Below, in pieces: positions 8,951-38,623 of a stretch of DNA of 64,000 nt; positions within the stretch are counted from its first letter, which is position 1, and every line of letters begins with the position of its first letter. The position numbers and the translations under genes are program-made. The DNA comes from a bacterium BMS3Abin14 (GTDB taxonomy: Bacteria; BMS3Abin14): NCBI GenBank assembly GCA_002897695.1, contig BDTG01000043.1:71934-135933 (forward strand), written 5' to 3'. The notes below the pieces were generated by a model. That model ran no database searches, had not been told where the DNA came from, and saw only the letters and a program-made list of their open reading frames with translations.

Positions 8951-10138
8951 CTAGATCCCGGTGGGGGCAAACTTCTGGCCGCATTTCGGACACCTGAATC
9001 GGATCCGCTTTTTTCGGTAAATCTTCGACGCTTCCACGGCGCCGGCGGTTCCACATTCAGGGCAGGTAATCTTGATGCGGGCGTTCCGGTCCATTGCCAT
9101 TGTAGCATCCCCGGAAGCGGAAGAAAAAAGGCTGATATCCTCCGCAGGGGACCTGGGAAGAACGATCTGCAATATGTGGCTTCCCAGGGTGATCCTGTCT
9201 CCATCCTGCAGGGCGAATCTCCTTGTAAACTGGTCGTTTACGAGGATGCCATTCAGACTGCCCATGTCCGTGATAAATAGTTTTCCATCCTTCTCGCCCA
9301 GGGAGGCGTGTTTCCTGGAAACACCGGGATCGTTGAGGAAAAGGTCGGACCCGGGGTCCCGGCCAATGACAAAGGGGTATGAGGTAACACTGACCCTTTT
9401 CAGGGTCCTGGTCTGGTCGCGGATGATGATCTCGGGCATTGGTCTGGTATAATGTTTGAGAATCCCTCCCTGATAGGCCGGTTTTCCCTCAAGGTAGTCG
9501 GCGGCAGGCGTGGTTCGCAGGTTCTCGAATACCCTGATTCTGATGGTATTGCCCTTCATCTGGCTGATCTCGATCCTTTTGAAAAGGTCAATCCAGTCCA
9601 TTCCAGCCGAGGATTGAACCACCTGATCGGAGAAATAGGCCTTGATGACCTTTCCGCCCTTGACGAAGGCCAGGCTGAAACGGCCATCCTGGATCAGCGC
9701 TACGAGGGAATCCTTTCGGCCTTCCATGAGGCCGACCACCAGGTTTTCTATTTTTATGTGCTCGGCAGCCCCTTCAGTCTCAGGGGAGCGTTCCTGAAGG
9801 ACAAGGATTGATTTCAGCAGGACGGGATCGGTCTGGATGAAGGAAAGGCGGGTCTGTGGGTTCTGCGCGAGGTAAATAAAGAACTCCCTTATCCCGGTTC
9901 CATGAAGATCTCCCATCGGTGATATATTCCCCGCAGAGTAGGGTTTTCTCTGAAAAAACAGGACGTATCTGCGGGATGAATCAACCGGGGATGCGGATGT
10001 GATGCAGAAACCATACTCCATCAAGGACATTTCCCCTTCCCCCTTCAGTATCCGGTCGAACATATCGGGGTCCAGATGAACGTCCTCAAGGAGTGCGGAT
10101 GCGAATGGAAAAGGAATTATCTCCTCTGATTTGATCAT
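8951..10138 (-). CDS. FHA domain protein with C-terminal zinc ribbon
   Basis: 395 residues. The N-terminal ~220 residues are not recognised. An FHA phosphothreonine-binding domain follows at about 235-315, with VIGRDPGSDLFLNDPGVSRKH and DMGSLNGILVN carrying the conserved GR, SRKH and N residues. The C-terminus is a CPECG...CPKCGQKF ribbon of the MJ0042 type. It begins behind AGGAGGAAAG. A Ser/Thr kinase is encoded 1.2 kb away, so it may read that kinase's products; this is inference. It heads the amrS-ade unit. Confidence 0.88.
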   Translation of the reverse strand: MIKSEEIIPFPFASALLEDVHLDPDMFDRILKGEGEMSLMEYGFCITSASPVDSSRRYVLFFQRKPYSAGNISPMGDLHGTGIREFFIYLAQNPQTRLSFIQTDPVLLKSILVLQERSPETEGAAEHIKIENLVVGLMEGRKDSLVALIQDGRFSLAFVKGGKVIKAYFSDQVVQSSAGMDWIDLFKRIEISQMKGNTIRIRVFENLRTTPAADYLEGKPAYQGGILKHYTRPMPEIIIRDQTRTLKRVSVTSYPFVIGRDPGSDLFLNDPGVSRKHASLGEKDGKLFITDMGSLNGILVNDQFTRRFALQDGDRITLGSHILQIVLPRSPAEDISLFSSASGDATMAMDRNARIKITCPECGTAGAVEASKIYRKKRIRFRCPKCGQKFAPTGI

Positions 10139-10185
10139 TTACTCTTTCCTCCTTCCGGATTTCACATTAGCCCACAGTGGGGCTG

Positions 10186-10214
10186 TTGACAAGGGTCGGC
10201 TCGACCCTTAAAAT
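10186..10214 (+). promoter_or_regulatory. sigma70-type promoter with palindromic spacer (pentapeptide gene)
   Basis: TTGACA at 10186-10191 and TAAAAT at 10209-10214, spacer 17 nt. The palindrome AAGGGTCG-GCT-CGACCCTT (8-bp arms, 10191-10209) fills the spacer, so a repressor or MerR-like regulator could bind between the boxes. The divergent FHA gene starts 48 nt to the left. Confidence 0.6.
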
Positions 10215-10240
10215 GTCGACCTGAATGGAGGATGTGACTA

Positions 10241-11332
10241 TTGTCTGATCTAACACCCGAGGAGATTTTGCAGAAAAAGGAATCCGGCGAAAGTCTGGCA
10301 GGCCTGAACCTGGTCAGAATCTCCCTGAAGGGGAAGGATCTGGCGGGTCTGGACCTGCATGGCGTTAATCTGCAATATGCCGACCTTTCCAACGCCGACC
10401 TGAGCCGGGCAAACCTCTCAGGTGCGGATCTCTCCTACGCCGACCTGGCCGGGGCCATGCTCAGAGGCGCCAACATGAAGAAAACCCGTATGGTTGCCGC
10501 CGATATTACCAACGCCGACCTCAGGGAGACAAATCTTTCCGGCGCAGCGGTTGACGATGCCAAACTGACCGGGTGTGACCTTTCAGCCTCAAACCTTTCA
10601 GGGGCCACGATAAGACGCTCCGAGGCCCGGAACATCAATGCTAATGGCGCCATTATGGATGGTGTCGACATGGAAGAATCACGGTTGGACGGCGCTTCCT
10701 TGAGAGGGGCCTCTCTTGTTGGAGCAAATTTGTCGGGGGCAGTCCTTGCCGGGGCCGATCTGTCGGGGGCGGACCTGAAGAAAAGCACCCTGATCAGGAC
10801 GGATTTCAGTAAATCGAAGCTTTCTTCCACGGGGTTTGTGGAGGCTAACCTCATGAATTCAACCCTTCAGGATGTCCAGGCGCCGGCAGCCGATTTTTCC
10901 CTGGCAAACCTTGCGGGGGTAAACCTTGGCAATGCCGGTCTTCGGAAGGCCATTTTTCGGAGTACCGAGATGACGCAGGCGGAACTTTCAAATTCAGATT
11001 GCGCCGAGGGTGATTTCAGCTATTCTAAAATGACCTACGTCACCGCTGAAGGGTCCAATCTGGCAAAGTGTTTCTTCGTTGAAACTACGCTTACCGATGC
11101 CAAACTGAAGAAATGCAGGATGGGGGGGGCCGACATGAGGGGCGCCATCGTGGCCGGATGCAGCCTTCTGGGCTCGGATCTTTCAGGTGCAAACCTTCAA
11201 AACGCCGATCTCTCGAGGGCAATTGTGACGGGGGCCGATTTTTCAAGGGTCGACATGACCGGAGCCAACATTGTGGGCACCGATTTCCGGGATGCCAAGC
11301 TGGAAGGGACACGGCATCCGGGGTCCGATTGA
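10241..11332 (+). CDS. pentapeptide-repeat protein
   Basis: 363 residues, almost entirely A(D/N)LXX repeats from about residue 20 to the C-terminus (ADLSNADLSRANLSGADLS and so on), which in this family fold into a right-handed quadrilateral beta-helix. No signal peptide or enzymatic domain is seen. The N-terminal 20 residues (LTPEEILQKKESGESL) are a short cap. TTG start behind GGAGG. It stands between the divergent FHA gene and the convergent Ser/Thr kinase gene, which ends 8 nt away. Some relatives bind gyrase, but nothing here shows that role. Confidence 0.92.
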   Translation: MSDLTPEEILQKKESGESLAGLNLVRISLKGKDLAGLDLHGVNLQYADLSNADLSRANLSGADLSYADLAGAMLRGANMKKTRMVAADITNADLRETNLSGAAVDDAKLTGCDLSASNLSGATIRRSEARNINANGAIMDGVDMEESRLDGASLRGASLVGANLSGAVLAGADLSGADLKKSTLIRTDFSKSKLSSTGFVEANLMNSTLQDVQAPAADFSLANLAGVNLGNAGLRKAIFRSTEMTQAELSNSDCAEGDFSYSKMTYVTAEGSNLAKCFFVETTLTDAKLKKCRMGGADMRGAIVAGCSLLGSDLSGANLQNADLSRAIVTGADFSRVDMTGANIVGTDFRDAKLEGTRHPGSD

Positions 11333-11339
11333 AACCTGT

Positions 11340-13772
11340 TTACTTCACCAAGGTCCTCAGCTCCGTCAGGGCCGCTTCCGCATCATGGAAGCGTTTATCC
11401 ACGTTTTTCTCCATACATTTGAGAATGAACCTCGACAACGCCGGGGGGATTGAAGGGTTGAATTTTTCAGGGGGCGGTGGAGCGGTGTGAACGTGATGGT
11501 ACATAACGTCCCCCTCTTTGAACGGTACCGTGCCGGTGAGAAATTCATAGATAGTAACGCCGACGGCATACAGGTCGGCCCGGTGGTCGATCTCTCCGCC
11601 GAGAATCTGTTCCGGCGACATGTAAAACGGTGTCCCGGCCATCTGCGTGTGGGTCTTTCTACCCTCCGCGACGGCTCTCGCAAGCCCAAAGTCGGTTATT
11701 TTTACCAGCTTTTCATCCCTTGACCAGAGAAGATTGGCGGGTTTAATGTCCCTGTGGACGATGTCCTTGCTGTGGGCGTATGCCAGGGCACGCAGGACCT
11801 GTCCCGCGATGACAAGCGCCGGCTTTAATTCAAACATACCCTGTTTTTCAAGTATCTCCTTAAGAGAGTCCCCATCGACGAACTCCATGACGATATAGTA
11901 CTCGCCCCTTCTCTGGTCGGCATCGTAAATGACGACAATGTTGGGATGTGAAAGCCTGGCCGCCGATTTGGCTTCCCTCAGGAACATCTCCAGAACCCTC
12001 TGATTTCTCTGAACCTGGGGCGGAAGAACTTTATAGGCCACGACTCTGTCCAGCAGGGTGTCCCTCGCCTTGTAAACGACCCCCATCCCCCCCCTGCCAA
12101 CCTCCTCGATGATCTCGTATCGGCCGTCCTTTGCCGAAGGCCCGGGCCCGCCGGAGACCATGGTAGAGTCGAGGGGAAACTTGTCGGCAACAATCCTGCC
12201 CTGCCCCGGGGAAGAGGCCCCCAGAAGGGCCTTCATGGATGTCAGCTGGTCCTTTACGTCCCTGTAATGATAATCCACAAGAAGAATTTTTTCCAGAATC
12301 GATACCGCCCCATGGAGTTGGTCGTCTTCCTTCAGGGACGCGGCGTACCTGTAAAAGGAATCCAGATTGTCCCTCCGGGGGGTCTCGTTCGCAATGGCGT
12401 TCTGGTATGCGGCAATGGCAAGGGACCACATCCTCTGGCCGAAAAAGAGATCTCCCAGAAGCCGGTTCGCTTCGGTGTAATCCGGGCTGGAGTTTTCAAC
12501 CTTCTGGAGGGCATCTGTAGCTCTCTCTTCTTTTCCCAGAGAGATAAAGAATCGTGCCGCCTGAAAGAAGGCGCCGGCGTCAAAAAGTGCACTGGCCTCT
12601 TGCTCAGTTTCCCCCAAATCCCGAAAAATCACGGCTGCATCTTCAGGCCGGCCGCCGGCCAGGAGGAGGTGTGCCGCATCGGAAGACCTCCCCAATTCGA
12701 TGAGAATGTCCGCGGCAAGACGGTAATCGCCCGCTTTTTCGAAGGCTTCAACAGCCTTTTCCCTGTCTCCGGCCGCAACGAAAACTTCTGCCGCTTTTCT
12801 CCATTCGCCAATACGCCCGAACAGCTCACCGGCCTCCATCGTCTTCCCTTCTTCCAGGAGGGCACTGGCGACATCCAATCCTCCCTCCTCAGGTGTGTCT
12901 GACGATCCCAGAATACGGGCAGCAGAAGCTGCATCCTTGGCCCTCATGTAGAGTTCGGATGCTTTTCGACCCTTACCCAATTCCTCATAAAGCCTGGCGG
13001 CCTGCTTGAAGTGGCCCCCGGTTTCGAGAACTTTTGCGGCTTTCCCTCTCTGGTTGGCCTGCAAGAGGCTGAGGGATGCCAGCGCTGCCAGGTTTTTCGA
13101 GACACGGTCCTCCTCAGGGGCAACGGATGGATCCCTGTGGCTCACCCTTTCCTGCAGTGCCCTGACAAGGAGTGGAGCTGCTCTGGAATGCTTACCAGCC
13201 TCGGCAAGAAGCTCACCCGCTTTCTGGTGGTGACCTGTTCTGGAAAAAAACTCTGACGCGTGCAGGGAGTCCCCTCCTTTCTCAAAAAACAGGGCAGCCT
13301 CATGGAAACGATCAACCTTGACCAGGTTCTCCGCGGCCTGAATAAAATTCTTTGTTCTTGCGAAAAACTCGGCTGCCTGGCCGTGAGCACCTACCCTTAC
13401 CAGGCATTCCGCCGCGTTCCCGTAATCGCTCATGGCAACGCAGGATTCCGCGGCCTTTTCATATTCTCCCACCTTGACAAAAGCCGCAGCCGATTCCTTA
13501 AAGCGTTTTGCGGATGCGTACAGGGCCCCTGCTTCGGCGTAATTGCCCTTTTTATCAGCCTTCTTTGCCTTCCTGATGAAAAAACGGGCGGGCCGATCCG
13601 CTGAAGCTTTATTCTCGCGATTCCTGAATGCAAAGAGGATGAGGCATAGAAGCGAAAGCCCACCTGCAGTCACCGTAATGGTGTCTGTCAGGCCCAGCAT
13701 CCAGGGTGAGGGAATGGAATACCGTGCGAGGGCGGCTTCGGCAACGGCTTGATAGCTGAAAATAGCGGACAT
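11340..13772 (-). CDS. Ser/Thr protein kinase with N-terminal helical repeats
   Basis: 810 residues. A membrane segment (TVTAGGLSLLCLILFAF, about 33-50) is followed by a long array of TPR/SEL-like helical repeats (about 75-500, many AAxxFxxxGxxxxA units), and the kinase domain is C-terminal (about 551-800). The kinase is complete: GRGGMGVVYKA loop, YKVL lysine, VHRDIKPANL near 672, DFGLAR near 693, and a TPFYMSPEQI activation segment. Most bacterial Hanks kinases have the kinase first and sensor last; here the order is reversed. No clear Shine-Dalgarno precedes the ATG; a TATAAT sits 8 nt before it. Confidence 0.92.
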   Translation of the reverse strand: MSAIFSYQAVAEAALARYSIPSPWMLGLTDTITVTAGGLSLLCLILFAFRNRENKASADRPARFFIRKAKKADKKGNYAEAGALYASAKRFKESAAAFVKVGEYEKAAESCVAMSDYGNAAECLVRVGAHGQAAEFFARTKNFIQAAENLVKVDRFHEAALFFEKGGDSLHASEFFSRTGHHQKAGELLAEAGKHSRAAPLLVRALQERVSHRDPSVAPEEDRVSKNLAALASLSLLQANQRGKAAKVLETGGHFKQAARLYEELGKGRKASELYMRAKDAASAARILGSSDTPEEGGLDVASALLEEGKTMEAGELFGRIGEWRKAAEVFVAAGDREKAVEAFEKAGDYRLAADILIELGRSSDAAHLLLAGGRPEDAAVIFRDLGETEQEASALFDAGAFFQAARFFISLGKEERATDALQKVENSSPDYTEANRLLGDLFFGQRMWSLAIAAYQNAIANETPRRDNLDSFYRYAASLKEDDQLHGAVSILEKILLVDYHYRDVKDQLTSMKALLGASSPGQGRIVADKFPLDSTMVSGGPGPSAKDGRYEIIEEVGRGGMGVVYKARDTLLDRVVAYKVLPPQVQRNQRVLEMFLREAKSAARLSHPNIVVIYDADQRRGEYYIVMEFVDGDSLKEILEKQGMFELKPALVIAGQVLRALAYAHSKDIVHRDIKPANLLWSRDEKLVKITDFGLARAVAEGRKTHTQMAGTPFYMSPEQILGGEIDHRADLYAVGVTIYEFLTGTVPFKEGDVMYHHVHTAPPPPEKFNPSIPPALSRFILKCMEKNVDKRFHDAEAALTELRTLVK

Positions 13773-13994: not shown

Positions 13995-14678
13995 CTACCG
14001 GAACAGGTGCAGCAGGAGGAATGTGCCTAAAAGCTGAAGCCCTACCAGGCCGCTGGTGTAGATTTTGGCGGGCCGGGTGACAATGGAGGTTTTCCCCTCC
14101 CGGATAGCGGTAAAGATGCTTTTCTGGTCAGGTTCTGAATCAATAACAGTGAAAGTATAATCAAGCTGCTTCAGAGAATGTGCGTCTGAAAGCCCAAGGA
14201 TGGGGAGATTGTTTTCAGATGCAAAGGTTTGGGCTTTATGGTTGAAGTTGACCTTTTTTGTGTAAAGATGCGAGTACTCCACAGCATCAAACAGGCCTGA
14301 AAATCGTTTCAGGAGGGTTCCAAGACAGTTATAATTTGGGTAAAAAGGGTGCGGCGCTACAACGAACGCCCCATTGGCCCTGACCCTTTTCAGGTCAAAG
14401 AAGGTCATCTGGCCCCACTTTTCATCCATTTCGCCAACGCCGTAAATAAGAACGTGCTTTCCCATCACAGTGGCCTCAACTCCGGGGATCAGGAGGATCC
14501 CGCGCATGGAGGCATATCGCGCCAGCTGCTCGCTGTAGGTAACGGTGTTATGGTTGCTGATGGAGATGACCTGGTAGCCCCTTTCGGCCGCACGGTCTAT
14601 CAACTCTTCAGCCGTATAGTTCAACTGATGCCGGGGGTCTTCCTTGGTATGAATGTGCAGATCGCATTTAAGCTTCAT
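13995..14678 (-). CDS. PHP-domain metal-dependent hydrolase with C-terminal membrane anchor
   Basis: 227 residues. PHP (polymerase and histidinol phosphatase) metal motifs are all visible: DLHIH at residue 6, ISNHNTVT, PGVEAT, APHPFYP and SDAHS near 175. The last ~20 residues (TSGLVGLQLLGTFLLLHLF) form a single hydrophobic segment, suggesting a tail-anchored protein facing the cytoplasm. Family members act as phosphoesterases; the substrate is unknown. The ATG is preceded by a weak Shine-Dalgarno. It stands alone between the kinase and SH3 genes. Confidence 0.85.
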   Translation of the reverse strand: MKLKCDLHIHTKEDPRHQLNYTAEELIDRAAERGYQVISISNHNTVTYSEQLARYASMRGILLIPGVEATVMGKHVLIYGVGEMDEKWGQMTFFDLKRVRANGAFVVAPHPFYPNYNCLGTLLKRFSGLFDAVEYSHLYTKKVNFNHKAQTFASENNLPILGLSDAHSLKQLDYTFTVIDSEPDQKSIFTAIREGKTSIVTRPAKIYTSGLVGLQLLGTFLLLHLFR

Positions 14679-17904: not shown

Positions 17905-18885
17905 TTATTGCAGCTTCAAGATGTCTCCTCTCTTGAAACCGGACCCCTCCAGGGTCTCGGCCACGGAGAACTTTTCCATTACCTGGGTAACCCTGATGGT
18001 TCCTGCCCTGGACTGGACGCTCCCGAGGCTCAGTCCCGTGTCAGGATCGATCAGTTCATCCCCCTTGGAGTATACGGAAAAAATTGTCCCGGTCGTAATA
18101 TTCATGTTCGCCCCGCCGTTGACGTACACCGTCCCGCCGGTGGCCTTCACGACTCTCCCTTCCCATGGACGCGCATCCATGGCGTTTACGATATAGCTCA
18201 CGGCGTTCTGAACAGCCTGCCTCGTTGCCTTGCCCAGTGCGGTTTTATTGTATGCCGCCCCGCCGAATGCCAGCCCGTGAAAGAAGGCAATACCGCCAAA
18301 TCCGGTGCTCTTTATCCGGCCCTCGGAGCGGTGGGACTGTTGAACCTGTCCGGTTGTTGAGTCGATCAGCCTCAAATCGATGGCCACATGCCCGGTATCC
18401 GTTCTCCCCACAATGCCGATCCCGTGTATGGCCAGGCCTCCGATGCCGCCGCTCTCCTTCTGGGCAAACTCCGTGACAGCCCCTTTAATCAGGACCTGAG
18501 CGCCCAGAAGTTCCCCGACTTTGGCTGCTGTTTCCCGGCGGATCCTTCCGGAAGATCCCAGGTCCTGTTCAGCCAGTATTTCGTCCAGAGCTCCTCTTTC
18601 CACAACAATGAAGCGATTTGTCTTCATCAGTTCCGTGGTAACCATATCGGTAAGCCTTCTCGATATATTCCAGCTTCTATCCCACCAGTGTCCCTGGATG
18701 TCGTTATCGAATTCCAGCACAGCTATCCGTTTTTTGGGACCATCATACGGTGGATAGGTGATCTCGTTCTGTACGGCGGGCGTCTGGCCCGGACTGCCAT
18801 AGGTCGCGCAACCGGCAGCCGCCATCAGAATAATCGACACCAATGCCGTGGCTAATGTCATAGTTAACCTTCGATTTCTTAACAT
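17905..18885 (-). CDS. CsgG-like lipoprotein
   Basis: 326 residues. The N-terminus is a lipoprotein signal with lipobox LMAAAGC. Then comes a CsgG-type domain (IAVLEFDND, LTDMVTTELMKTNRFIVVER, LGAQVLIKGAVTEF), known from curli secretion pores and many uncharacterised outer-membrane lipoproteins. The C-terminal ~80 residues (from GGTVYVNGGANMNITTG) form an extra beta-rich domain. The ATG at 18885 is used because GGAGGT lies 10 nt upstream; frame upstream of it is non-coding. No csgA, csgE or csgF is nearby, so a curli role is not supported. It is the last gene after the pseudo-domain signalling genes. Confidence 0.85.
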   Translation of the reverse strand: MLRNRRLTMTLATALVSIILMAAAGCATYGSPGQTPAVQNEITYPPYDGPKKRIAVLEFDNDIQGHWWDRSWNISRRLTDMVTTELMKTNRFIVVERGALDEILAEQDLGSSGRIRRETAAKVGELLGAQVLIKGAVTEFAQKESGGIGGLAIHGIGIVGRTDTGHVAIDLRLIDSTTGQVQQSHRSEGRIKSTGFGGIAFFHGLAFGGAAYNKTALGKATRQAVQNAVSYIVNAMDARPWEGRVVKATGGTVYVNGGANMNITTGTIFSVYSKGDELIDPDTGLSLGSVQSRAGTIRVTQVMEKFSVAETLEGSGFKRGDILKLQ

Positions 18886-18934
18886 GACGGCTCTACCTCC
18901 AGTTAATCCGGTTCTTGCTGAACTCCATAGACGC

Positions 18935-18957
18935 GATGATGACTTCAAGTCGTCATC
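18935..18957. repeat. GATGACTT-type hairpin, copy 2
   Basis: GATGATGACT-TCA-AGTCGTCATC, a 10-bp stem with one G-U pair, 1 nt beyond the response regulator stop. It shares the GATGACTT core with the copy at 16506 but lacks the distal arm. Confidence 0.5.
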
Positions 18958-18958
18958 C

Positions 18959-19342
18959 TTAACCATCCAGAAGCCCCTCGACAGCGTCAAGGAGCTGTCG
19001 CTGAGTGAAGGGCTTGGAAAGGAACGCATCGGCGCCGCAGCGTTCCGCGTTATCACGGTTTCCCTGATCGTCATAAAAAGCGCTGACAAGGAGTATGGGG
19101 GTTTTCTTCTCCTTCCCTTCCTTGCTCCGAATGAGGATAGCCACATTGAAACCATCCCCTTTGGGCATGGAGATATCGCTGATCACAAGATCAGGCCCGA
19201 CATCCAGAAATCTGCTTATAGCCTTCTCCCCATCCTCGGCGATATGCACGCGGTAGCCCTGTCTTTCCAGGACTATTCTCATTATCTCCTGAATGCCGGG
19301 ATCGTCGTCAACGATCAGTATGTTAGTTTTTTTATGGCTCAT
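18959..19342 (-). CDS. single-domain response regulator
   Basis: 127 residues, receiver only. LIVDDDPG, the acceptor Asp in VISDISMPKGDG, LLVSAF and FLSKPFT are intact, so it should accept phosphate. Its ATG overlaps the stop of the PATAN protein (ATGA), so the two are coupled. It is the only clearly phosphorylatable member of this three-gene set, whose other receiver is degenerate. Confidence 0.9.
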   Translation of the reverse strand: MSHKKTNILIVDDDPGIQEIMRIVLERQGYRVHIAEDGEKAISRFLDVGPDLVISDISMPKGDGFNVAILIRSKEGKEKKTPILLVSAFYDDQGNRDNAERCGADAFLSKPFTQRQLLDAVEGLLDG

Positions 19343-20823
19343 GCAGGTCTGATCTCCTGGTTGTTCTCCTCCTCTGACAGGAGGTCAAAAAGGGACTTGA
19401 ATACCTCGGTAGCTGAAACCCGGTCCGCTCCTTCCGGCTCGATTTCCCAATGAACAAGGGGATGCTTGAGAGATTGGTGGACAAATTCCGTCACAAGCGT
19501 CAGGTCGTTCACGTCACTTTCGTTTCCGTGAGTGAGAAGAACGGCGCCGATGGAACCCTCGGAGAACGGTTTCCAGAGTGGTTGGAAAACATCCCTGGAG
19601 GGCAAAACAAATAGTTGGAGACGTGTTTTATCACTGATCTCCAACGATCCCAGCGAACCGAAGGAGGCGTTGAGCACCTCCTGATTGGAGAAGTTATCCC
19701 TGGAAAGTTGAAACTCGTCAAGGTTTCCCGCATCGGCGAGAAAAAATTTGATGAGATCGGGTGATGACGCAAAAAGGAGAACCTTCCCCCATCCCAGGCC
19801 CATCCCGTCTTCCAGACTCAAAATTCTGCGGATGAGAAGGGCCTGTTCGGCGGTTACCAGAGGCGATCCGCCACGGATGACTGATCGATCTTCCTGTATG
19901 GGGGTCAGGATTCCCTTCTGTATGAGCCCCAGTATAGATTTGCAGATTTCGTAGTCGGTGTGGGAAGATTTTTCGATAATGTCGGCAACGGAGCTGTAGA
20001 ACTCGAGGAGGAGAAGAACCTCCCTGGTAACCGGCCTCAGGTCCCTGGGCATGTCATCCTGGTCCTTGTTCAGTTTCAGAACCGCGGAACCCGGCGGCAT
20101 CTGCTCCTGAAGGGATTCCCACTCGTCCAGCTGACGCATCCCCTCCATAAGGAGGGCATCAATCGGTCGGGCGATGTTTCTGGATACGTTGGATTCAATC
20201 GGTTGGTAATAGAAAGTCCCCTCGTGCCATCGCAGGATTCTGTAAAGGGCTTTTTCTCCTTTTGTCTCCCCGAGGACCGCGCTGACCACATCCCCCTTTT
20301 TAAGGTAAACCTTTCCCTCAAACCCATCGTGGGCCAACGTTACTACCCCTGTCCGTCTGTTCAGGGAAAAGATCTGAAGAAGGTCAACGAGGGATACTTC
20401 CTTGATGCTTCCCTCGACACCGGACCCGACTTCTCTCACGCGGTCCCTGTGGTTCCCGGTCTTATCAAAAGCCTGGGTGATTTTTGCGCTGATGTCATCC
20501 CAGCGGAAGGGTTTTACAAGAAAGGGGTCCGGCCCAATGGAAGCCAGCGTTGAGTCCTTCTCATTACCGTTATCCACGAGGAAAATTATTGGGATATGGA
20601 ACGTGGTGGGATTGTTTCTGAGAAAAGCCCGAAGCCGTTCGCCGCTGAAGATGGGGAGATGGTAGTTGGTGATGAGAAGGTCGGGTTTTCCGACAATGGC
20701 CTCCTCAAGTGCCCCGACGCCGTCCGAGGCCGTTTTAACCACGAACTGGGCCTTTGTAAGGCGTTTGCCCAATTTTTTCAATAGTTTGGGATCTGCGTCA
20801 ACCAGCAGGAGCTTTTGTGCCAT
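19339..20823 (-). CDS. pseudo-receiver / PATAN (DUF4388) / degenerate GTPase-like protein
   Basis: 494 residues. Residues 1-115 are a receiver domain, but the phospho-acceptor is Asn53 (LLITNYHLP) and the usual Thr/Ser is Val (FLVDN), so it should not be phosphorylated. Residues ~136-235 are a DUF4388/PATAN domain (VSLVDLLQIFSLNRRTG), an interaction module. Residues ~340-480 resemble the MglA-like GTPase fold (VLLFASSPDLIKFF, then LQLFVLPSRDVFQPLW and GAVLLTHGNE), but the GKT/S P-loop is lost. The fold assignment of the last part is by pattern only. TAATG overlap with the upstream gene. Confidence 0.82.
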   Translation of the reverse strand: MAQKLLLVDADPKLLKKLGKRLTKAQFVVKTASDGVGALEEAIVGKPDLLITNYHLPIFSGERLRAFLRNNPTTFHIPIIFLVDNGNEKDSTLASIGPDPFLVKPFRWDDISAKITQAFDKTGNHRDRVREVGSGVEGSIKEVSLVDLLQIFSLNRRTGVVTLAHDGFEGKVYLKKGDVVSAVLGETKGEKALYRILRWHEGTFYYQPIESNVSRNIARPIDALLMEGMRQLDEWESLQEQMPPGSAVLKLNKDQDDMPRDLRPVTREVLLLLEFYSSVADIIEKSSHTDYEICKSILGLIQKGILTPIQEDRSVIRGGSPLVTAEQALLIRRILSLEDGMGLGWGKVLLFASSPDLIKFFLADAGNLDEFQLSRDNFSNQEVLNASFGSLGSLEISDKTRLQLFVLPSRDVFQPLWKPFSEGSIGAVLLTHGNESDVNDLTLVTEFVHQSLKHPLVHWEIEPEGADRVSATEVFKSLFDLLSEEENNQEIRPA

Positions 20824-22262
20824 TATATCTGGTCCTGGAGGGAATACTCTTCCCGGAGTTTGAAAGCCAGCCTCTCGACAAGTTTGTCATGGGATGAATG
20901 AACGCTCTTCCATGTATCCTCCTTTTGCTGTACAGCCACGAGCCCGTAGGCGTGCACGTCGGAAAGGTACAGGATGAACTGAAATGCCGATGCCCTTTCG
21001 GGGGGAAGGGGAATTGTGTTGATGTTAAGATTCCTAAGTGTCTGTACGCCGGACATATCCCCGAAAACGCTGATCCGGGTGGCCGCTTTTGCTATGGCGA
21101 CATTCCGCTGCAAAAGCGCTTCGGTGATATAAATGTTGTCGGTACCGACGAAAAGCAGTCCCCGCCTTCCAGGATGCAGTACGATATCGTTTGTCACGGT
21201 CTCCTGCAGCAGATATGTAAACCCTGTATGGAACTCGACGAATTTGGTGTCCCGAATTCGGGATAACTCACGTTTTCCTCCGGGGCCTGTGAAATTCTCG
21301 ACCAGATCCCAGAATGACCTGTTCTTCCACTGAATCAGGTTAAAGGGATCTTTACGATTTTGCTCGGTCTGTTCGAGGGCCGCCATCAGAAGCGAATCCA
21401 CATCCGTTCCGTCTTCCGGAAAACACGCAAACCCGAAATGGGGTTCCAGGGCATACCGGGAGAAACGTTCACCAAGAAAATCAAGCTTTTCGAAACCTTT
21501 CCTTATCCTCTCAATGGTGAACCGGCAACCGATGCTGTCACCGTCGGGCAAGGCCATCAGGAAGCGGAAATTTCCGACGTGGGAAACAACATCGTAGTCT
21601 CTGACAATACCTTTCAGGGTCTCCGATATGTCTCTGAGCATGATCTGGACCACCCGGTAGGACTGATTTTTCTGGAAAGCTTCCACCCCCTGGAAGTCGA
21701 GGCTGATAAGGCCGAGCCTCCGATGATACCGCTGGCTTATGGTGACCTGGCGGGCCAGAAAATCCAGGATGAACGGCTCATTGTAACTTTCCGAGTCCAG
21801 ATCCATCAGGGGAGTGCGCCGCGTCCTGTCCAGGGTCAGCGCGCTGTTTAGAAAAGGGGTAAATTCCTGGACTATTTCGCGGGCGGAATCAAGAATTTCC
21901 TCTTCCAGCGCCTTTTCCTTGGAAGAGCTCTTCAGCTGGAGATGAACCACCCCTGTGAGGAGGTCATGATGGAGGATGGGCAGGAAAATGCTGTCAAGAA
22001 TGATTTTGCCATTCCGGCGTTCAAAGAACGGTGAACCGCTTGAAACCTGTCCGTGCCTCTGCAGGACATCCGCCACATCGATTTGCCTTGGCGTTGGGAT
22101 CACGTTCCCTTTTGAAAGCACTTTCCGAAAGGACCTCTCCTGATCGTGAATCCACACGATGCCGGACACCCCGTCGAGTTTTTCCATGAGGCTCGAAACA
22201 AGACGGTCGGACATTCCGGCCAGGTCCAGGATGTCCTCAGCCTTTCGGACGATCTGTGTCAC
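20823..22262 (-). CDS. GAF and degenerate GGDEF protein
   Basis: 479 residues. An N-terminal GAF-like domain (about 15-140) is followed by a region shaped like a diguanylate cyclase (about 160-310): RRLGLISLDFQGVEAFQ matches the substrate strand, but the GG(D/E)EF loop is replaced by VGNFRF near residue 229, so catalysis is not expected. The last ~170 residues form a further domain of uncertain type (a DICT-like sensor is possible). GTG start behind GGGGGG. First gene of the three-gene overlapping set leading to the PATAN protein and response regulator. Confidence 0.78.
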   Translation of the reverse strand: MTQIVRKAEDILDLAGMSDRLVSSLMEKLDGVSGIVWIHDQERSFRKVLSKGNVIPTPRQIDVADVLQRHGQVSSGSPFFERRNGKIILDSIFLPILHHDLLTGVVHLQLKSSSKEKALEEEILDSAREIVQEFTPFLNSALTLDRTRRTPLMDLDSESYNEPFILDFLARQVTISQRYHRRLGLISLDFQGVEAFQKNQSYRVVQIMLRDISETLKGIVRDYDVVSHVGNFRFLMALPDGDSIGCRFTIERIRKGFEKLDFLGERFSRYALEPHFGFACFPEDGTDVDSLLMAALEQTEQNRKDPFNLIQWKNRSFWDLVENFTGPGGKRELSRIRDTKFVEFHTGFTYLLQETVTNDIVLHPGRRGLLFVGTDNIYITEALLQRNVAIAKAATRISVFGDMSGVQTLRNLNINTIPLPPERASAFQFILYLSDVHAYGLVAVQQKEDTWKSVHSSHDKLVERLAFKLREEYSLQDQI

Positions 22263-22309: not shown

Positions 22310-22690
22310 TCAACCTTCGGTTCGGCGAAGATAAATCACCAGGGCAACCGATCCGGTCAGGGCTCCGAGGGTATCAACCATTATATCCATTGTATCAAAG
22401 ACACGGTTGGGTATGGCGAATTGATGCAATTCATCAAGAAGACCGTAACCCACACAGATTACTACGGCGAACAGAATGGTGTCAATCGTTCCGGTGGCAA
22501 CTCCTGTCTGCCTGAGCGCCCTTGCCAGAAAAAACGCAAGGAGAGTAAACTCGGCAAAATGGGCAGCGACATTGGCGATTTCAGGATGGCTCGGATAGTC
22601 GTTGCCCGGGATGGAAGACAGGACAAATATGGAACCGGCAACCAGCGCGGGCGGCCCCCAGATACGGATCAGTCTCATAAATCTGCCCAT
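22310..22690 (-). CDS. VanZ-family membrane protein
   Basis: 126 residues with four hydrophobic segments and the family pattern HFAEFTLLAFFLARALR, GYGLLDELHQFAIPNR and DTMDIMVDTLGALTGS. VanZ in enterococci confers low-level teicoplanin resistance, but the family at large is of unknown function. It is flanked on both sides by GATGACTT-type repeats and is probably its own transcription unit. Confidence 0.85.
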   Translation of the reverse strand: MGRFMRLIRIWGPPALVAGSIFVLSSIPGNDYPSHPEIANVAAHFAEFTLLAFFLARALRQTGVATGTIDTILFAVVICVGYGLLDELHQFAIPNRVFDTMDIMVDTLGALTGSVALVIYLRRTEG

Positions 22691-22747
22691 CTCTGTGGAT
22701 TCAGGCGATTTTGCGATGGTGCTGTCCTTTTCTGATAATCGTTGTCG

Positions 22748-22799
22748 TGGTGACAGATTCGTAAAAAGTCCATCAGAAGACTTTTTGTGAAGCCATCAC
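22748..22799. repeat. GATGACTT/GTAAAAAGTC-type long hairpin
   Basis: GTGGTGACAGATTCGTAAAA continues AGTC, an 8-nt loop, then GACTTTTTGTGAAGCCATCAC: a stem of about 20 bp with a few mismatches. It abuts the stop codon of the BFN nuclease gene and may also act as its terminator. The same outline (TCG-AAAA-CCAT...TGTGAAGYCATCA) recurs at 56852. Confidence 0.65.
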
Positions 22800-23302
22800 A
22801 TTTTATATTTGCTGAAATCTTTTGGATCTGATTTTTTCAATAATTCCGCCAAGTTATCATCTTCCACATTATGTTTTTCATCAATTGATGAGAGGTCGAT
22901 GGCGGAGTGGATAAATAATTCATCCTTGACATAAATAGGGCATCCCATGCGGACGGCAAGGGCAATGGCATCGGAAGGTCTGGAATCCACCGAAAATTCT
23001 CTTCCTCCCAGTTTCAGATGAATTGCGGCGTAGAAAATATTGTCCTTCAGGTCCGTGATGGCCACACTGTCAACGCCGGCCCCGATGACTTCGAGGAGCG
23101 ACTTGACAAGGTCATGGGTCATGGGACGCGGCGGTTCAACGCCGCTCAGGTTCATGGCGATTGCGTTGGCCTCCAAAATACCTATCCAGATGGGCATTGC
23201 CCTTTTACCCTCCTGGTCTTTCAGAAGGATGATCGGGCTGTTGTTGCCAGGGTCCATCGTAACCCCGTGAACCGTAACCTCGATGATGTCTCTTTCGTCC
23301 AT
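22796..23302 (-). CDS. bifunctional nuclease family protein (DUF151)
   Basis: 168 residues of the BFN/DUF151 family; characterised homologues show nuclease activity, but the bacterial role is unclear. Family motifs are MPIWIGILEANAIAMNLSG, RPMTHDLVKSLLE and SRPSDAIALAVRMGCPIYV. Its start (ATG 23302, or GTG 23305) overlaps the miaB stop and follows GGAGGGAAAG, so the two genes are coupled. The miaB-BFN pairing is frequent in deltaproteobacterial-type genomes, as far as I recall. Confidence 0.9.
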   Translation of the reverse strand: MDERDIIEVTVHGVTMDPGNNSPIILLKDQEGKRAMPIWIGILEANAIAMNLSGVEPPRPMTHDLVKSLLEVIGAGVDSVAITDLKDNIFYAAIHLKLGGREFSVDSRPSDAIALAVRMGCPIYVKDELFIHSAIDLSSIDEKHNVEDDNLAELLKKSDPKDFSKYKM

Positions 23303-24723
23303 CACAATACCTTTCCCTCCAGGTGTATGCCGTGGGAACGGGATATCCTGACCTTTATTGTCTCTCCGACCAGTATCTTCGGACCATGAAAGTGAACAAT
23401 GTAGTTGTTACGGGTTCTTCCCTCAAGCCCGGCGTTTTCCCGACGGTCATAACCCTCAACGAGAACCTCAACGATCTTCCCGGCCATTGAAGCGTGCTTC
23501 TGGGATGTTATAAGGTTCTGAACCTCCTGGAGTTCCGGCAGCCAGGGACGTTTTTTTTTCTGCGGGACGGGATCCTCCATATTCGCCGCAGCTGTGCCGG
23601 GGCGGGGAGAGAACCTGAAGGAGAAGACATTCTGGTAGCGAACCTTCTCCAGTAACGAAATGGTTTTCAGAAAATCATCTCTCCCCTCCCCCGGAAATCC
23701 GACGATGATATCTGTCGAGATCTCAACTCCCGGGACCAGTTCCCTCAAAACGGAAACCGTGTCCAGGTATTCTTCAATGGTGTATCCCCTTTTCATGGCT
23801 TTCAGAACCCTGTCCGAACCGGCCTGGACCGGAAGATGTACATGTTCACAGACGCTCCGGAGGCCTGCCATGGCATGGGCCATGTCGCTGGAAAAATTTT
23901 TCGGATGTGAAGTGACGAAACGGAGCCGCTTAAGGGAACCAATGGAGTCCAACTTCTCCAGAAGCTCCAGAAAGCCGGACCCGGTTTCAGGGTCGTGGTA
24001 GGAGTTGACGTTCTGCCCGAGCAGGGTTATCTCCCTGACCCCGCTGTCAACAAGATGCCGCGCCTCATCCATGATCCCGGACATTCCACGGCTGGCTTCC
24101 CGGCCGCGGACCATGGGAACGATGCAGTAGGCACAGTAATTATCGCACCCCTTCATGATGGTCAAAAGGGCGGTTGGGCTCCGGACGCCCTCGGTTCTCG
24201 GGGCGGCTGCCGACGAAACCTGGAACCTGTCCTTTTCCACACGGCACACTCTTCGTCCGGTGGATAAACGCTCATCGATAATCCGGGTCAGTTCATTGAT
24301 GTTGTGGGTGCCGAAAACAAGGTCCACCTGAGGCAATCGCCGAAGCATCCGTTCGCCTTCCTGCTGAGCTACGCAGCCCCCTACCCCGATGAGGAGATCG
24401 GGATTACTCTCCTTCAGGGAGCGGAACCGCCCCAGAAGGCTGTAAACCTTCTGCTCAGCCTTGTCGCGGATGGAACAGGTGTTCAGGATAATCAGGTCGG
24501 CATTCTCCACCGAATCGGTTGGAAGATAACGGTCCTGGAGAAATGCGAGGATTTTCTCCGAATCGTAAACATTCATCTGACATCCGAAGGTTCGAATGTA
24601 AACACGTCCGGGTGTTTCGGGTACGGCCTGATATTCCGTCGCCAAATACCCCGCCTCAAAGGCGGTTTCGTCATCCATGCTGGCTTGGCTGCCGAATCCG
24701 ATGACCCCGATGAACTTTTTCAA
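23302..24723 (-). CDS. miaB: tRNA-2-methylthio-N6-dimethylallyladenosine synthase
   Basis: 473 residues. Adds the 2-methylthio group to i6A37 of tRNAs reading UNN codons. N-terminal UPF0004 domain with three cysteines (FGCQMN, LNTCSIRDKAE, GVGGCVAQ) for the auxiliary cluster; the radical SAM cluster is CDNYCAYC near residue 197; a C-terminal TRAM domain ends in GIHLEGKVL. A TTG start at 24723, 3 nt after the small basic protein gene, gives an unusually long N-terminal extension of about 40 residues before the YIRTFGCQMN core; ATG 24678 is an alternative but lacks a Shine-Dalgarno. Confidence 0.95.
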   Translation of the reverse strand: MKKFIGVIGFGSQASMDDETAFEAGYLATEYQAVPETPGRVYIRTFGCQMNVYDSEKILAFLQDRYLPTDSVENADLIILNTCSIRDKAEQKVYSLLGRFRSLKESNPDLLIGVGGCVAQQEGERMLRRLPQVDLVFGTHNINELTRIIDERLSTGRRVCRVEKDRFQVSSAAAPRTEGVRSPTALLTIMKGCDNYCAYCIVPMVRGREASRGMSGIMDEARHLVDSGVREITLLGQNVNSYHDPETGSGFLELLEKLDSIGSLKRLRFVTSHPKNFSSDMAHAMAGLRSVCEHVHLPVQAGSDRVLKAMKRGYTIEEYLDTVSVLRELVPGVEISTDIIVGFPGEGRDDFLKTISLLEKVRYQNVFSFRFSPRPGTAAANMEDPVPQKKKRPWLPELQEVQNLITSQKHASMAGKIVEVLVEGYDRRENAGLEGRTRNNYIVHFHGPKILVGETIKVRISRSHGIHLEGKVL

Positions 24724-31063: not shown

Positions 31064-33403
31064 TTAAAAACCTTTCCGGAGCGCCTCGAGGGCGAAAACG
31101 GCCTGGCCGAGGGAAATCCCGCCGTCGTTGGTGGGGACCGTCCGGTGGAGGAGCGGCCTTAAGGACCGGCCGGAAAGCTCCCGCCGGATCATTTCGGAGA
31201 AAACCGCATTCTGGAACACACCGCCGCCCATGGGGATCGACTCCTGTACCCTCTCTGAGGCGTTCAGGGTCTCCCGGCAGGCCGAAAGGGCCTGTGCCAG
31301 GGCTGCGGCAAGGGTCCTGTGGAACATTCCCCCTAACCTTTCCAGGGGCTCACCGGCCAGATGGAGGTCCAGAGCCGCGTCGAAGGCGGGAAGCAGGTCA
31401 ACGATTGCCGTTCCATCCCGGTCGAAGTCCACGGAAAAGGGCAGGGTATCCGTAACCGATGGGTCCGTCAACATCTCAAGCTCGATGGCGGCCTGGCCCT
31501 CGTAGCTGGTGAAAAGGCAGATTCCCAGCATGGCCGAGAAAGCATCGAAGATCCGGCCGCAGCTGGAGGTCATCATGCCGTTGGTTCTCCTCTCGACGAA
31601 ACCTGAGAGGATCTCCATGTCGCCTTCAGGTACCTCGGGAAAAAGGACAGGAGCGAGCTTCAATGCATCCTTTCTCCCCCGGCATTCAACCATACAGGAA
31701 AGGGCCATGCGGTATGGTTCACGGACCGCCTGATCGCCCCCCGGCATCCAGAGCGTCCGCATGTGTCCGAGCCGGTCCATGCGGGTTCCGTCAACCAGGA
31801 GGATCTCTCCGCCCCAGACTGTCCCGTCCGTGCCGAAACCGGCGCCGTCAAGTGCAAGGCCGAGGGCTGGTTCGTTTACCCCGTGTTCGGCCAGGCAGCT
31901 GAGGATATGGGCATGGTGGTGCTGGACCCGAAAGACCGGAAGACCCTCCTCCCACGGGTTCTCCCCGCCCTCCTCGACCAGACGGGAGGTCAGGTAATCG
32001 GGGTGAAGGTCGCAAGCCAGGGCTTTGGGAGAAACCTGGAGGATGTCCATGAGATGGGCAACGACCTCCCGGAGAAAATTGAGCGTCTCCAGGTTCTTCA
32101 GATCACCGAGATGCTGGCCGATGAATGCCTGGTTCCCCCTGGTCAGGCAGACTGAACCCTTGAGTTCAGGCCCCAGGGCCAGGACCGGATCACCCGACAT
32201 GGGCAGCGGGACGGGGGCGGGTACGAATCCCCTGGCCCGCCTGAGGACAACCGGGCCTCTTCCCGAACTATTTCCGTCCGGCATGACGATGGAGTCGTCG
32301 CATCTCAGGACGATGTCCCTGTCGTGAACCAGGTAGACGTCGGCGATGCCCGAAAGCCGTTTTTGTGCTTCGTCGTTGTCCGCGCAAAGGGGTTCCTCGG
32401 CGACATTGGCGCTGGTCATGATCAGGGTGTCGAATTCTTCCATCAGGAGGGTGTGAAGGGGGGTGTATGGGAGCATAAGGCCGAAATATCTGCTTTTCGG
32501 GGCTACCTCCGCGGCGATGGCCAGACCGGGATCCGGGTGTTTATCCAGCAGTACGATGGGGCTCTCCGTGCTTGCCAGCAGGCCCTCAGACCTTTCTTTG
32601 ATCTTGCAAAGTCTGCGGGCCGTCTCCAGATCACGGACCATTAAGGCAAAGGGCTTTTCCTCTCTCCCCTTCCGGGCACGGAGCCTTCTGACTGCCTGGG
32701 CATTGAAAGGGTCGACGGCAAGGTGAAAACCGCCGAGGCCCTTTACGGCGGCCACCTTGCCCTGTTTGATGGCCGTGACCGTCAGCATGAAAGGGTCGCC
32801 TGGAAGGACTGACCCGTCCGCCAGGCGGAATTGCAGTCGCGGGCCGCACTTTTCGCACGCATTGGGCTGCGCGTGAAACCTCCTGTCGGCGGGGTCGTCG
32901 TATTCAGTCCTGCATAGCGTGCACATGGTGAACCTGGCCATGGAGGTATTGGGGCGGTCATAGGGAACGGAGTTTATTATGGTGTACCGCGGCCCGCAGT
33001 TGGTGCAGTTTATGAAAGGATAACCGCAGCGGCGGTCCTCCGGATCGAGGAGTTCCCTTCTGCAATCGGGGCAGATTGCGGTGTCCGGCGAGACGAGTAC
33101 CCTGCTGTCCGGCCGGGCGATGCTGCCCCTGATAGTGAAATCCCTGTAGCCGGCGGTCGGGAGACTGTGCTTTGCAAGTGAGGTGATGTTCGCAAGGGGC
33201 GGTGCCTTCCTCTCCAGGTGACCGGCGAAGGCTTCAAGCGCTTCACCCTCCCCTTCCACCTCGATGAGGACCCCGTGGGAGGTGTTGGTGACCCACCCTG
33301 TGAGCCCCATTTCCTCGGCAATACGGTAGACGAAGGGCCTGAAACCGACGCCCTGGACGATCCCTTCGATCTCGATGCGATATCTGGATCTGATACGGCT
33401 CAC
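31064..33403 (-). CDS. hypF: carbamoyltransferase HypF
   Basis: About 779 residues. Makes thiocarbamate on HypE from carbamoyl phosphate and ATP. An acylphosphatase domain (GIVQGVGFRPFVYRI) is N-terminal, then two CX2C zinc pairs (CPDCRREL, CTNCGPRYT, CTLCRTEY, CEKCGPRL), a YrdC-like domain, and a Kae1-like C-terminal domain with VQHHHAHILSCLAEHG. GTG 33403 is chosen because it overlaps the hypB stop by 4 nt; ATG 33436 with GGAAGGG upstream is the alternative. Confidence 0.95.
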   Translation of the reverse strand: MSRIRSRYRIEIEGIVQGVGFRPFVYRIAEEMGLTGWVTNTSHGVLIEVEGEGEALEAFAGHLERKAPPLANITSLAKHSLPTAGYRDFTIRGSIARPDSRVLVSPDTAICPDCRRELLDPEDRRCGYPFINCTNCGPRYTIINSVPYDRPNTSMARFTMCTLCRTEYDDPADRRFHAQPNACEKCGPRLQFRLADGSVLPGDPFMLTVTAIKQGKVAAVKGLGGFHLAVDPFNAQAVRRLRARKGREEKPFALMVRDLETARRLCKIKERSEGLLASTESPIVLLDKHPDPGLAIAAEVAPKSRYFGLMLPYTPLHTLLMEEFDTLIMTSANVAEEPLCADNDEAQKRLSGIADVYLVHDRDIVLRCDDSIVMPDGNSSGRGPVVLRRARGFVPAPVPLPMSGDPVLALGPELKGSVCLTRGNQAFIGQHLGDLKNLETLNFLREVVAHLMDILQVSPKALACDLHPDYLTSRLVEEGGENPWEEGLPVFRVQHHHAHILSCLAEHGVNEPALGLALDGAGFGTDGTVWGGEILLVDGTRMDRLGHMRTLWMPGGDQAVREPYRMALSCMVECRGRKDALKLAPVLFPEVPEGDMEILSGFVERRTNGMMTSSCGRIFDAFSAMLGICLFTSYEGQAAIELEMLTDPSVTDTLPFSVDFDRDGTAIVDLLPAFDAALDLHLAGEPLERLGGMFHRTLAAALAQALSACRETLNASERVQESIPMGGGVFQNAVFSEMIRRELSGRSLRPLLHRTVPTNDGGISLGQAVFALEALRKGF

Positions 33404-34050
33404 AGGGCGGCGAAAGACCTGACAAATTCCATCCACCCTTCCAGGCCTTCCCCCGTGCGGCAGGAGGTCCTGAGGATTTTGATGGCAGGGTTGGTGGACC
33501 GTGCGTTTTCGATGACGGATTCCATTGAAAAATCGGTGAATGGCAGGAGATCGGTTTTGTTTATTACCATGAGATCGGACGTATGGAACATGGCGGGGTA
33601 TTTCAGCGGTTTATCGTCGCCCTCGGTGACGCTGATGATGGCCACTCTTGCCCCTTCCCCAAGGTCGAAGGCGGAAGGGCACACGAGGTTTCCCACATTT
33701 TCGATAAAGAGCAGGTCCAGGCCATTCAGGTCGAAATGGTCGAGGGCGTCCCGGACCATAGCCGCTTCCAGGTGACATGCGCCTCCGGTGTTGATCTGGT
33801 GGACCGGGACCCCGGTCACGGCGATGCGCCGGGCGTCGTTTGCAGTCTGGATATCACCCTCAATGACGCCGATGGAAAGTTTATCGGACAAAGGTTCAAG
33901 ACTTTTTTCCAGGAGAGAGGTCTTTCCGGACCCCGGGGAACTGACCATGTTGATGACGGACACACCGGCGAACCGGAAACGCTCCCGGACCTGGTCCGCA
34001 ACGTGGTCGTTTCTGGTGAGGATCTTTTTCTCAAGCTTTATGGGATCCAT
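33400..34050 (-). CDS. hypB: hydrogenase nickel incorporation GTPase HypB
   Basis: 216 residues. GTPase that drives nickel insertion with HypA. P-loop SSPGSGKTSLLEKS, then GDIQT, NTGGACHLEA, FIENVGNLVCPSAFDLGE (metal-binding Cys) and NKTD. There is no N-terminal CxxCGC motif or His-rich nickel store. ATG 34050 with AGGG upstream is chosen; a GTG at 34089 would add 13 unusual residues. Confidence 0.95.
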   Translation of the reverse strand: MDPIKLEKKILTRNDHVADQVRERFRFAGVSVINMVSSPGSGKTSLLEKSLEPLSDKLSIGVIEGDIQTANDARRIAVTGVPVHQINTGGACHLEAAMVRDALDHFDLNGLDLLFIENVGNLVCPSAFDLGEGARVAIISVTEGDDKPLKYPAMFHTSDLMVINKTDLLPFTDFSMESVIENARSTNPAIKILRTSCRTGEGLEGWMEFVRSFAAL

Positions 34051-34101
34051 GAAACCCTGTTTTGCCTCCTCCCTCGCGCGTTTTTTCACGTTGGACGTTC
34101 T

Positions 34102-34446
34102 TTATTCTACCTCAAAATCAATTATGTTCAACTCGTCGCCCTCAAGCAGCTCAGTATCAAGGCCTCCGCAGGAGGGACAGCGAAGGAGGCGCCCCTCCCC
34201 CTCGAATTCATCGTCGCACGGCCCGCATCGAATCCTCACGGGAACCCTCACGATTGTGAGCTCCGCGTGTCTGGTCACCATCTTTTCGCCTCGAACCGCC
34301 TCGAAACAGAACCTCAGACTGTCCGTCTCAACCCCTGACAGGTCCCCTATTCTGAGACGGATGTCCGTTACCTGTCCGGCGCCGTGGTTTTGCGCCTCCC
34401 TTTCCACAATATCCAGAATCTCCATGGCGATGGAAAGTTCGTGCAC
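34102..34446 (-). CDS. hypA: hydrogenase nickel chaperone HypA
   Basis: 114 residues. Starts MHELSIAMEILD with the nickel-binding MHE. The zinc site is formed by CGPCDDEF and CPSCGG near residues 75-95. GTG start after GGAG. It sits between the maturation endopeptidase and hypB genes. Confidence 0.94.
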   Translation of the reverse strand: MHELSIAMEILDIVEREAQNHGAGQVTDIRLRIGDLSGVETDSLRFCFEAVRGEKMVTRHAELTIVRVPVRIRCGPCDDEFEGEGRLLRCPSCGGLDTELLEGDELNIIDFEVE

Positions 34447-34467
34447 GATGGTTGTCTCCAGGGGAAA

Positions 34468-35016
34468 TCAGGCGGGAACCGGCGCCCGGTGATCGGGGCC
34501 GGGTTTAATGAACGGAGCTTTCAGGTAATGGCTGTATTTGGCGGGGTCGACCCCTGCAGCCTCGATGACCAACTCCATGATTTTCGGCAGTTTCTCCTGT
34601 ACCGGCGGCGACAGCTCCATGGACATGGACACCTCGGCCGGCTCGATGCCTATGATGGTGGTACGCGGCGGATCCCGAAAAGCCCCCGTCAGGGATATGA
34701 CCTCCTCGATGCTGACCTGGTGCACCGATGTCTTGTAGACGTCCGGGAAATGTCGGTAATCGTCGATATCGAAGCGATATATGGAAGCAGGCGCACCGCC
34801 GCCTTTAACACAATCGACGACGATGAGCCTGTCGGTTTCAAGAATGAGGTTGAAAAGACCAAAGCCGTCAGTGCCCCCCTCAACGACATCGATGTAATCG
34901 GGGAATGGACACTCCATGAGGTTCACAGCAACATGAACGCCAACCCCCTCGTCCCGCAGGAGGAGGTTTCCGACCCCGAGGATCATTGTTTTTGCCTGGC
35001 TATCTGTTCCTTCCAT
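34468..35016 (-). CDS. hydrogenase maturation endopeptidase
   Basis: 182 residues of the HybD/HyaD family, which cleaves the large-subunit C-terminus once nickel is in. GVGNLLLRDEGVGVHVA carries the nickel-binding Glu, and LIVVDCVKGGG the second acidic site; the His is in STRIGHT-type positions further on. The target here should be the large subunit cut after DPCLACAVH. ATG 35016 is used; ATG 34986 (MILGVGNLL) is also possible. Confidence 0.9.
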   Translation of the reverse strand: MEGTDSQAKTMILGVGNLLLRDEGVGVHVAVNLMECPFPDYIDVVEGGTDGFGLFNLILETDRLIVVDCVKGGGAPASIYRFDIDDYRHFPDVYKTSVHQVSIEEVISLTGAFRDPPRTTIIGIEPAEVSMSMELSPPVQEKLPKIMELVIEAAGVDPAKYSHYLKAPFIKPGPDHRAPVPA

Positions 35017-35052
35017 CTCTTTTCCGGTTGGCCGCCATCCCGGACCGGGATG

Positions 35053-35673: not shown

Positions 35674-35688
35674 CGTTGTGCCCCCTTT

Positions 35689-38306: not shown

Positions 38307-38623
38307 CGAATCGACTCCCCTTTCTATAACAAGTAGTACTCTACCCGGTACCCTGTCGATTTGCACTTCCGATCAACATGTTTTCGAAAGCCAGACGGAT
38401 AAATGAGGGCGGTTTTGCAGGTACTCACTATCTCTCCCATGGCGAGAGTATACACTTACCAGATGTGAAGTCAATACCTGCAGGTGTCATAACATGTTGA
38501 AGATATTGCACAAATTACATTGATTTAGTCGACAAAATGCTGTTTCTTTTTGACTGAAGTCTGTGATCAACCGGAATTCAACTGGGGGGGCATACAATAC
38601 AAATTAACGGATTATTGAAATAT
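38307..38623. other. intergenic: hydrogenase control region
   Basis: Holds the promoter described separately and palindromes ACCTGCAGGT (38476-38485), AACATGTT twice (38375-38382 and 38491-38498), and a CTCTC...GAGAG pair (38432-38448). The right half, next to rluB, is AT-rich with no gene. Confidence 0.6.
38447..38474 (-). promoter_or_regulatory. hydrogenase operon promoter
   Basis: TTGACT (38474-38469), 16-nt spacer, TATACT (38452-38447), about 140 nt before the small-subunit ATG. Just upstream is the palindrome ACCTGCAGGT and just downstream CTCTCGCCATGGGAGAG, both suitable operators. It looks like sigma70; no sigma54 GG/GC pair was found. Confidence 0.65.

Follow-up and report, generated by a model that had tools for sequence, protein, structure and literature searches.

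Organization and conservation of the G-R pair

The window analysed here, a stretch of 64,000 nucleotides from the bacterium BMS3Abin14, carries on its minus strand four consecutive genes in the order G, R, RR1 and a gene for a CsgG-like lipoprotein. We focus on the first two. G encodes a protein with a catalytically dead GGDEF domain that keeps a predicted inhibitory site (I-site) for cyclic di-GMP (c-di-GMP), and R encodes a protein in which a degenerate receiver is followed by PATAN and by a small-GTPase-like domain without P-loop. Judging by the sequence comparisons given below, G and R have stayed neighbours in many bacterial families and evolve under purifying selection. The open reading frames bear out the initial annotation, which had described three overlapping genes followed 73 nucleotides later by the start of the lipoprotein gene:

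20823-22262, minus strand: G, 479 amino acids, GTG start; GAF-like, degenerate GGDEF and DICT-like domains
19339-20823, minus strand: R, 494 amino acids; degenerate receiver, PATAN domain and pseudo-GTPase domain
18959-19342, minus strand: RR1, 127 amino acids; stand-alone receiver with complete phosphorylation residues
17905-18885, minus strand: CsgG-like lipoprotein, 326 amino acids; neighbour gene

G and R overlap by 1 nucleotide, and R and RR1 by 4. G is encoded in each of the phylum's 12 genomes, the same 12 that were found of the family, with one copy cut by a contig end; relatives within the family include the metagenome-assembled genomes SZUA-204 and SZUA-178. When contigs were searched for relatives, a single protein retrieved none and alignment A1 retrieved seven. 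A survey of 290 genomes detected the C-terminal domain of G in 24, once per genome; two matches among the weakest carry stops and are doubtful, and nine families remain. The same domain was found, as one copy each, in 57/97 genomes of the phylum of G039, a count that includes 33 of the 34 genomes of family f29 (mostly 9-12 Mb in size), and in 8/9 genomes of the phylum of G031. At all loci where both genes were readable G and R were adjacent (10 own-family loci including the window, 11 distant loci and 18 further ones), with a spacing within the own family that ranges from an overlap of a few nucleotides to a gap of about 50 nucleotides.

Between the window and a genus-mate (L026), the ratio of nonsynonymous to synonymous substitution rates (dN/dS) was 0.109 for G and 0.123 for R. 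By domain, the pseudo-receiver gave 0.054, the GGDEF domain 0.095 and the C-terminal domain of R 0.162. The neighbouring genes coding for MiaB, a bifunctional-nuclease-domain (BFN) protein, VanZ, RR2, PlsC and MFS proteins gave 0.13-0.22 in the same comparison. The gene order MiaB-BFN-VanZ-G-R was shared by the own family, and variants of it occurred in distant ones.

RR1 and the lipoprotein gene lie outside this conserved core. RR1, in which the acid pair, Asp56, Ser87 and Lys110 are intact, was present in 7 of the 8 own-family loci extending beyond R, being missing in L034; the lipoprotein gene was present in five own-family loci and did not follow R in L033 and L034. Neither gene was found next to G-R outside the own family among the loci examined. 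In L037 and L120, G bears its own N-terminal receiver, and one might guess that RR1 substitutes for a lost receiver once fused to G, an origin that the similarity of RR1 to the G-fused receivers of other families neither favours nor excludes. The lipoprotein matched the Pfam CsgG domain with E 2e-42, and LpoB and FlgT more weakly; its start was set at 18885 instead of the mechanical reading frame start at 19155 because its homologues measure 321-331 amino acids. It may belong to the G-R unit or be a mere neighbour.

Domains and residues of G and R

The features located within the two proteins were as follows:

21342-21785, minus strand: GGDEF fold of G, residues 160-307 (Pfam GGDEF, E 5e-9)
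21507-21602, minus strand: predicted c-di-GMP I-site of G, formed by Arg221 and Asp224 (RxxD) and Arg252
21600-21602, 21591-21593 and 21507-21509, minus strand: codons of Arg221, Asp224 and Arg252, respectively
20826-21338, minus strand: DICT-like domain of G, residues 309-479 (hhalign, P 1.6e-4)
20665-20667, minus strand: codon of Asn53 of R, at the receiver phospho-acceptor position
20116-20415, minus strand: PATAN (DUF4388) domain of R, residues 137-236 (Pfam, E 3e-25)
19390-19797, minus strand: small-GTPase-like domain of R without P-loop, residues 343-478 (hhalign, P 1e-6)

In G the sequence GNFRF (residues 230-234) replaces the GGDEF motif, which was gone in all of the 41 G homologues compared (27 after reduction to less than 70% identity). 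The positions of the metal and guanine ligands of PleD carry other residues in G and across the homologues. On the loss of the GG(D/E)EF motif and of these ligands, G was ruled out as an active diguanylate cyclase. Arg221, Asp224 and Arg252 are the equivalents of R359, D362 and R390 of PleD, a register backed by a HMMER alignment to active GGDEF structures, and they were retained in 40/41, 41/41 and 38/41 homologues. Among 161 alignment columns they ranked 7th, 3rd and 10th in conservation, and the GGDEF positions ranked between 39th and 134th. What is notable is that, as read from these alignments, the whole I-site persists though the remaining active-site residues have disappeared. c-di-GMP is bound via the I-site in PleD and DgcR (PMC8041772), and the dead GGDEF domain of PelD is a c-di-GMP receptor through Arg367, Asp370 and Arg402 (PMC7112168).

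Residues 1-115 of G form a GAF-like region for which the window protein gave no Pfam GAF match; GAF_2 was matched with E 0.084 in one family member and more clearly, with E 2.5e-5, in a distant homologue. The isolated C-terminal domains of G and R matched no Pfam family over the cut-off and were studied by profile-profile comparison with shuffled controls. That of G resembled DICT (hhalign score of 32.4 vs at most 18.2 in 60 column shuffles); the Pfam DICT profile (PF10069) itself matched no own-family protein, and its best single match, with E 0.13 in L038, was below the cut-off. The AlphaFold model of G as a single chain had a mean predicted local distance difference test (pLDDT) score of 83, and its structural matches included GGDEF structures and GAF-GGDEF proteins, PelD (4etz, E 4e-8) among the latter.

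The receiver of R was recognized by Pfam (REC, E 1.8e-11) but is not phosphorylatable by its sequence: Asn53 occupies the acceptor position and Ala10 stands in the acid pair, whereas Lys104 is kept. The acceptor position is Asn throughout the own family and D, S, G, E, A, F or Y elsewhere. The window's genome also holds a paralogue (L201) that combines PATAN with a receiver whose residues are intact, and therefore the loss of the acceptor is specific to R; this paralogue (L201:4851-11001, G000:C8) adjoins two large receiver/histidine-kinase-like proteins. L206 and L207 hold large REC-PATAN proteins too, each with a long extension at the C-terminus; the extension of L206 is TPR-like by eye, and the receiver acceptor of this protein is likewise Asn. 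The PATAN domain of R scored 89 bits vs a Pfam cut-off of 25, and a middle stretch separates it from the C-terminal domain, which aligned with MglA-type GTPases with an hhalign score of 44.3 vs at most 17.7 in 60 column shuffles. No P-loop was present in any of the 39 R homologues readable at that position, and other nucleotide-binding motifs were likewise absent. A search of the PDB with the C-terminal profile of R produced weak matches to Arf GTPases alone (E at least 0.12), which we took only as an indication of direction. The single-chain model of R was of low overall confidence, with a predicted template modelling (pTM) score of 0.40, and a fold search with it was dominated by receiver domains and gave no information on the C-terminus.

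The domain content described in the initial annotation was confirmed. Asn53, the Pfam PATAN match and the hhalign result agree with its description of R as an Asn receiver with PATAN and P-loop-less GTPase-like domains, and RR1 has the full phosphorylation residue set of the one intact receiver it had recognized. For G, described as GAF plus GGDEF-like without the loop, the loss of GGDEF held and the GAF part was weak in the window protein. The idea that the pseudo-domains serve as binding surfaces stood as far as their being dead by sequence and did not stand for the GGDEF-like domain as a mere surface. Because the I-site is retained, c-di-GMP is a likely input and this domain would be more than a surface. 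The intact I-site and the DICT-like C-terminal domain of G had gone unmentioned.

Possible function of the pair and alternative explanations

With a probability of roughly 0.45, we propose that G is a PelD-like c-di-GMP receptor that signals via R, with type IV pili or cell polarity as a possible target. G and R would be a co-translated two-protein signalling unit, and it is likely that they function together. c-di-GMP, which G probably binds as a receptor, would occupy the I-site as in PelD, and the GAF-like and DICT-like domains would shift in response. G would then hand the signal to R, which might act via its PATAN domain, and perhaps by mimicking an MglA-type GTPase, on a polarity target or on the motor of type IV pili; such an output of the pair is put forward tentatively. 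In the own family, by a weaker inference, RR1 could add a phosphorylation input, which we consider possible, and the lipoprotein would be a neighbour or an output. The window's genome (G000) contains 11 GGDEF matches and therefore c-di-GMP is probably made there; PilB/PilT-type ATPases are also present. PATAN regulators of Synechocystis bind the pilus motor PilB (PMC10519157; PMC9090330), and PATAN genes are located near mglA genes (PMC4316618). In L144 (G024:C5), a PATAN gene (23016-23327) immediately precedes the gene of a small GTPase with an intact P-loop (23615-24136).

Several points weigh against this proposal. The link to pili would be founded on PATAN homology alone, and the PilB/PilT-type ATPase family also spans type II secretion. 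The G homologue of L229 (G343:C13:48500-54000) is without Arg221 and Arg252, so that its lineage possibly no longer binds c-di-GMP, and the Arg252 position is variable in L118 and L227. Many R homologues of the G039 phylum keep an Asp acceptor, and R may be phosphorylated there. Finally, of 36 active GGDEF domains, a sample skewed toward strong matches, 35 carried RxxD as well, and the conservation of this motif in G may thus be partly inherited or structural.

This last point is shared by the explanation that the pair is a pure scaffold without ligand, in which the only role of the dead domains (GGDEF, receiver and GTPase-like) would be as protein-binding surfaces and folding or inheritance would have kept RxxD and the further Arg. 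The equal conservation of the structural residues R178, D242, G245, P282 and G285 in the G homologues agrees with it; however, Arg252 (PleD R390) is found in 38/41 homologues vs 21/36 active GGDEF domains, and the equivalent residues bind c-di-GMP in PelD (PMC7112168). We consider a pure scaffold unlikely. The envelope function suggested in the initial annotation would make RR1 the main phosphate input and the lipoprotein the output, with G and R connecting them. RR1 has complete receiver residues, both genes stand close behind R here and in several relatives, and PelD-type receptors govern polysaccharide production (PMC7112168). Neither gene, however, was found with G-R outside the own family, and even within it the lipoprotein gene does not always follow R. 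Because both were found solely there, the envelope link rests on lineage-specific adjacency and does not represent a general function of the pair. The expectation of a gene set conserved in relatives was thus borne out for G-R in many families and for RR1 and the lipoprotein in the own family only, and we regard an envelope switch as quite unlikely.

That all three large domains lack catalytic residues would also suit decayed copies of ordinary signalling enzymes heading for loss, which the initial annotation expected to betray themselves by intact homologues in close relatives or by a lack of clustering. Every own-family orthologue retrieved shares the loss of GGDEF, P-loop and Asp, and G and R cluster in many families. 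Decay toward loss was ruled out by these shared losses, by dN/dS values of 0.05-0.16 and by the conserved adjacency, the single copy and the retained I-site arguing in the same direction; we assign it a negligible probability, and the pair is probably a sensor and not a decayed relic.

On a further-reaching version of the c-di-GMP receptor reading, which we consider rather doubtful, the pair would be a broadly distributed and so far undescribed effector module. Its dead GGDEF/DICT-like receptor would govern a PATAN protein whose pseudo-GTPase imitates or counteracts polarity GTPases of the MglA type, and c-di-GMP would in this way be coupled to the control of pili or polarity. In the literature on PATAN, DUF4388, DICT and degenerate GGDEF domains the pair was undescribed, most subscription papers being beyond reach. 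If the receptor reading is true, G and R would be a conserved single-copy c-di-GMP effector pair, new to the literature found, in lineages known mostly from metagenomes. It would connect c-di-GMP, PATAN regulators and small-GTPase-like proteins, with predictions that rest on three named residues.

Neighbouring genes and comparison with known systems

Upstream of G, the window carries miaB, the BFN gene and a VanZ-like gene (22310-24723), and the same order was seen ahead of G in many distant families, a stability that was unexpected. In the distant families of L117, L118, L121, L122, L123 and L124 a PHP-domain gene directly follows R; it differs from the PHP-domain gene located several genes downstream in the window (13995-14678). 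Near the cluster, 8951-13772 encodes an FHA and zinc-ribbon protein and a TPR and Ser/Thr kinase protein, and a NiFe hydrogenase region including HypF occupies 31064-38366.

Among known systems, PelD is like G in pairing a GAF domain with a dead GGDEF domain that has kept RxxD and one more Arg, residues that serve c-di-GMP binding in PelD (PMC7112168). Unlike PelD, G has a DICT-like C-terminus, a resemblance to DICT (PF10069) seen by profile comparison only and below the Pfam cut-off, and no membrane part appeared in its model or in the Pfam results. G also lies outside a pel operon, with miaB, BFN, VanZ and R as neighbours, and its partner is R instead of Pel genes. R shares the combination of REC and PATAN with the Synechocystis response regulators PixG, PixE, PilG and LsiR; PATAN proteins target PilB, the motor of type IV pili (PMC10519157; PMC7690835). 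Unlike these regulators, R starts with its receiver, which is degenerate, ends in a fused pseudo-GTPase and has a dead GGDEF protein as its partner. The C-terminal domain of R aligns with MglA-type small GTPases, which points to homology to the GTPase fold, although R is without the P-loop or any other nucleotide-binding motif. Finally, the Myxococcus pilus regulator FrzS resembles R in having a receiver without phosphorylation residues (PMC11580455), but it carries a long coiled coil and neither a PATAN nor a GTPase-like domain.

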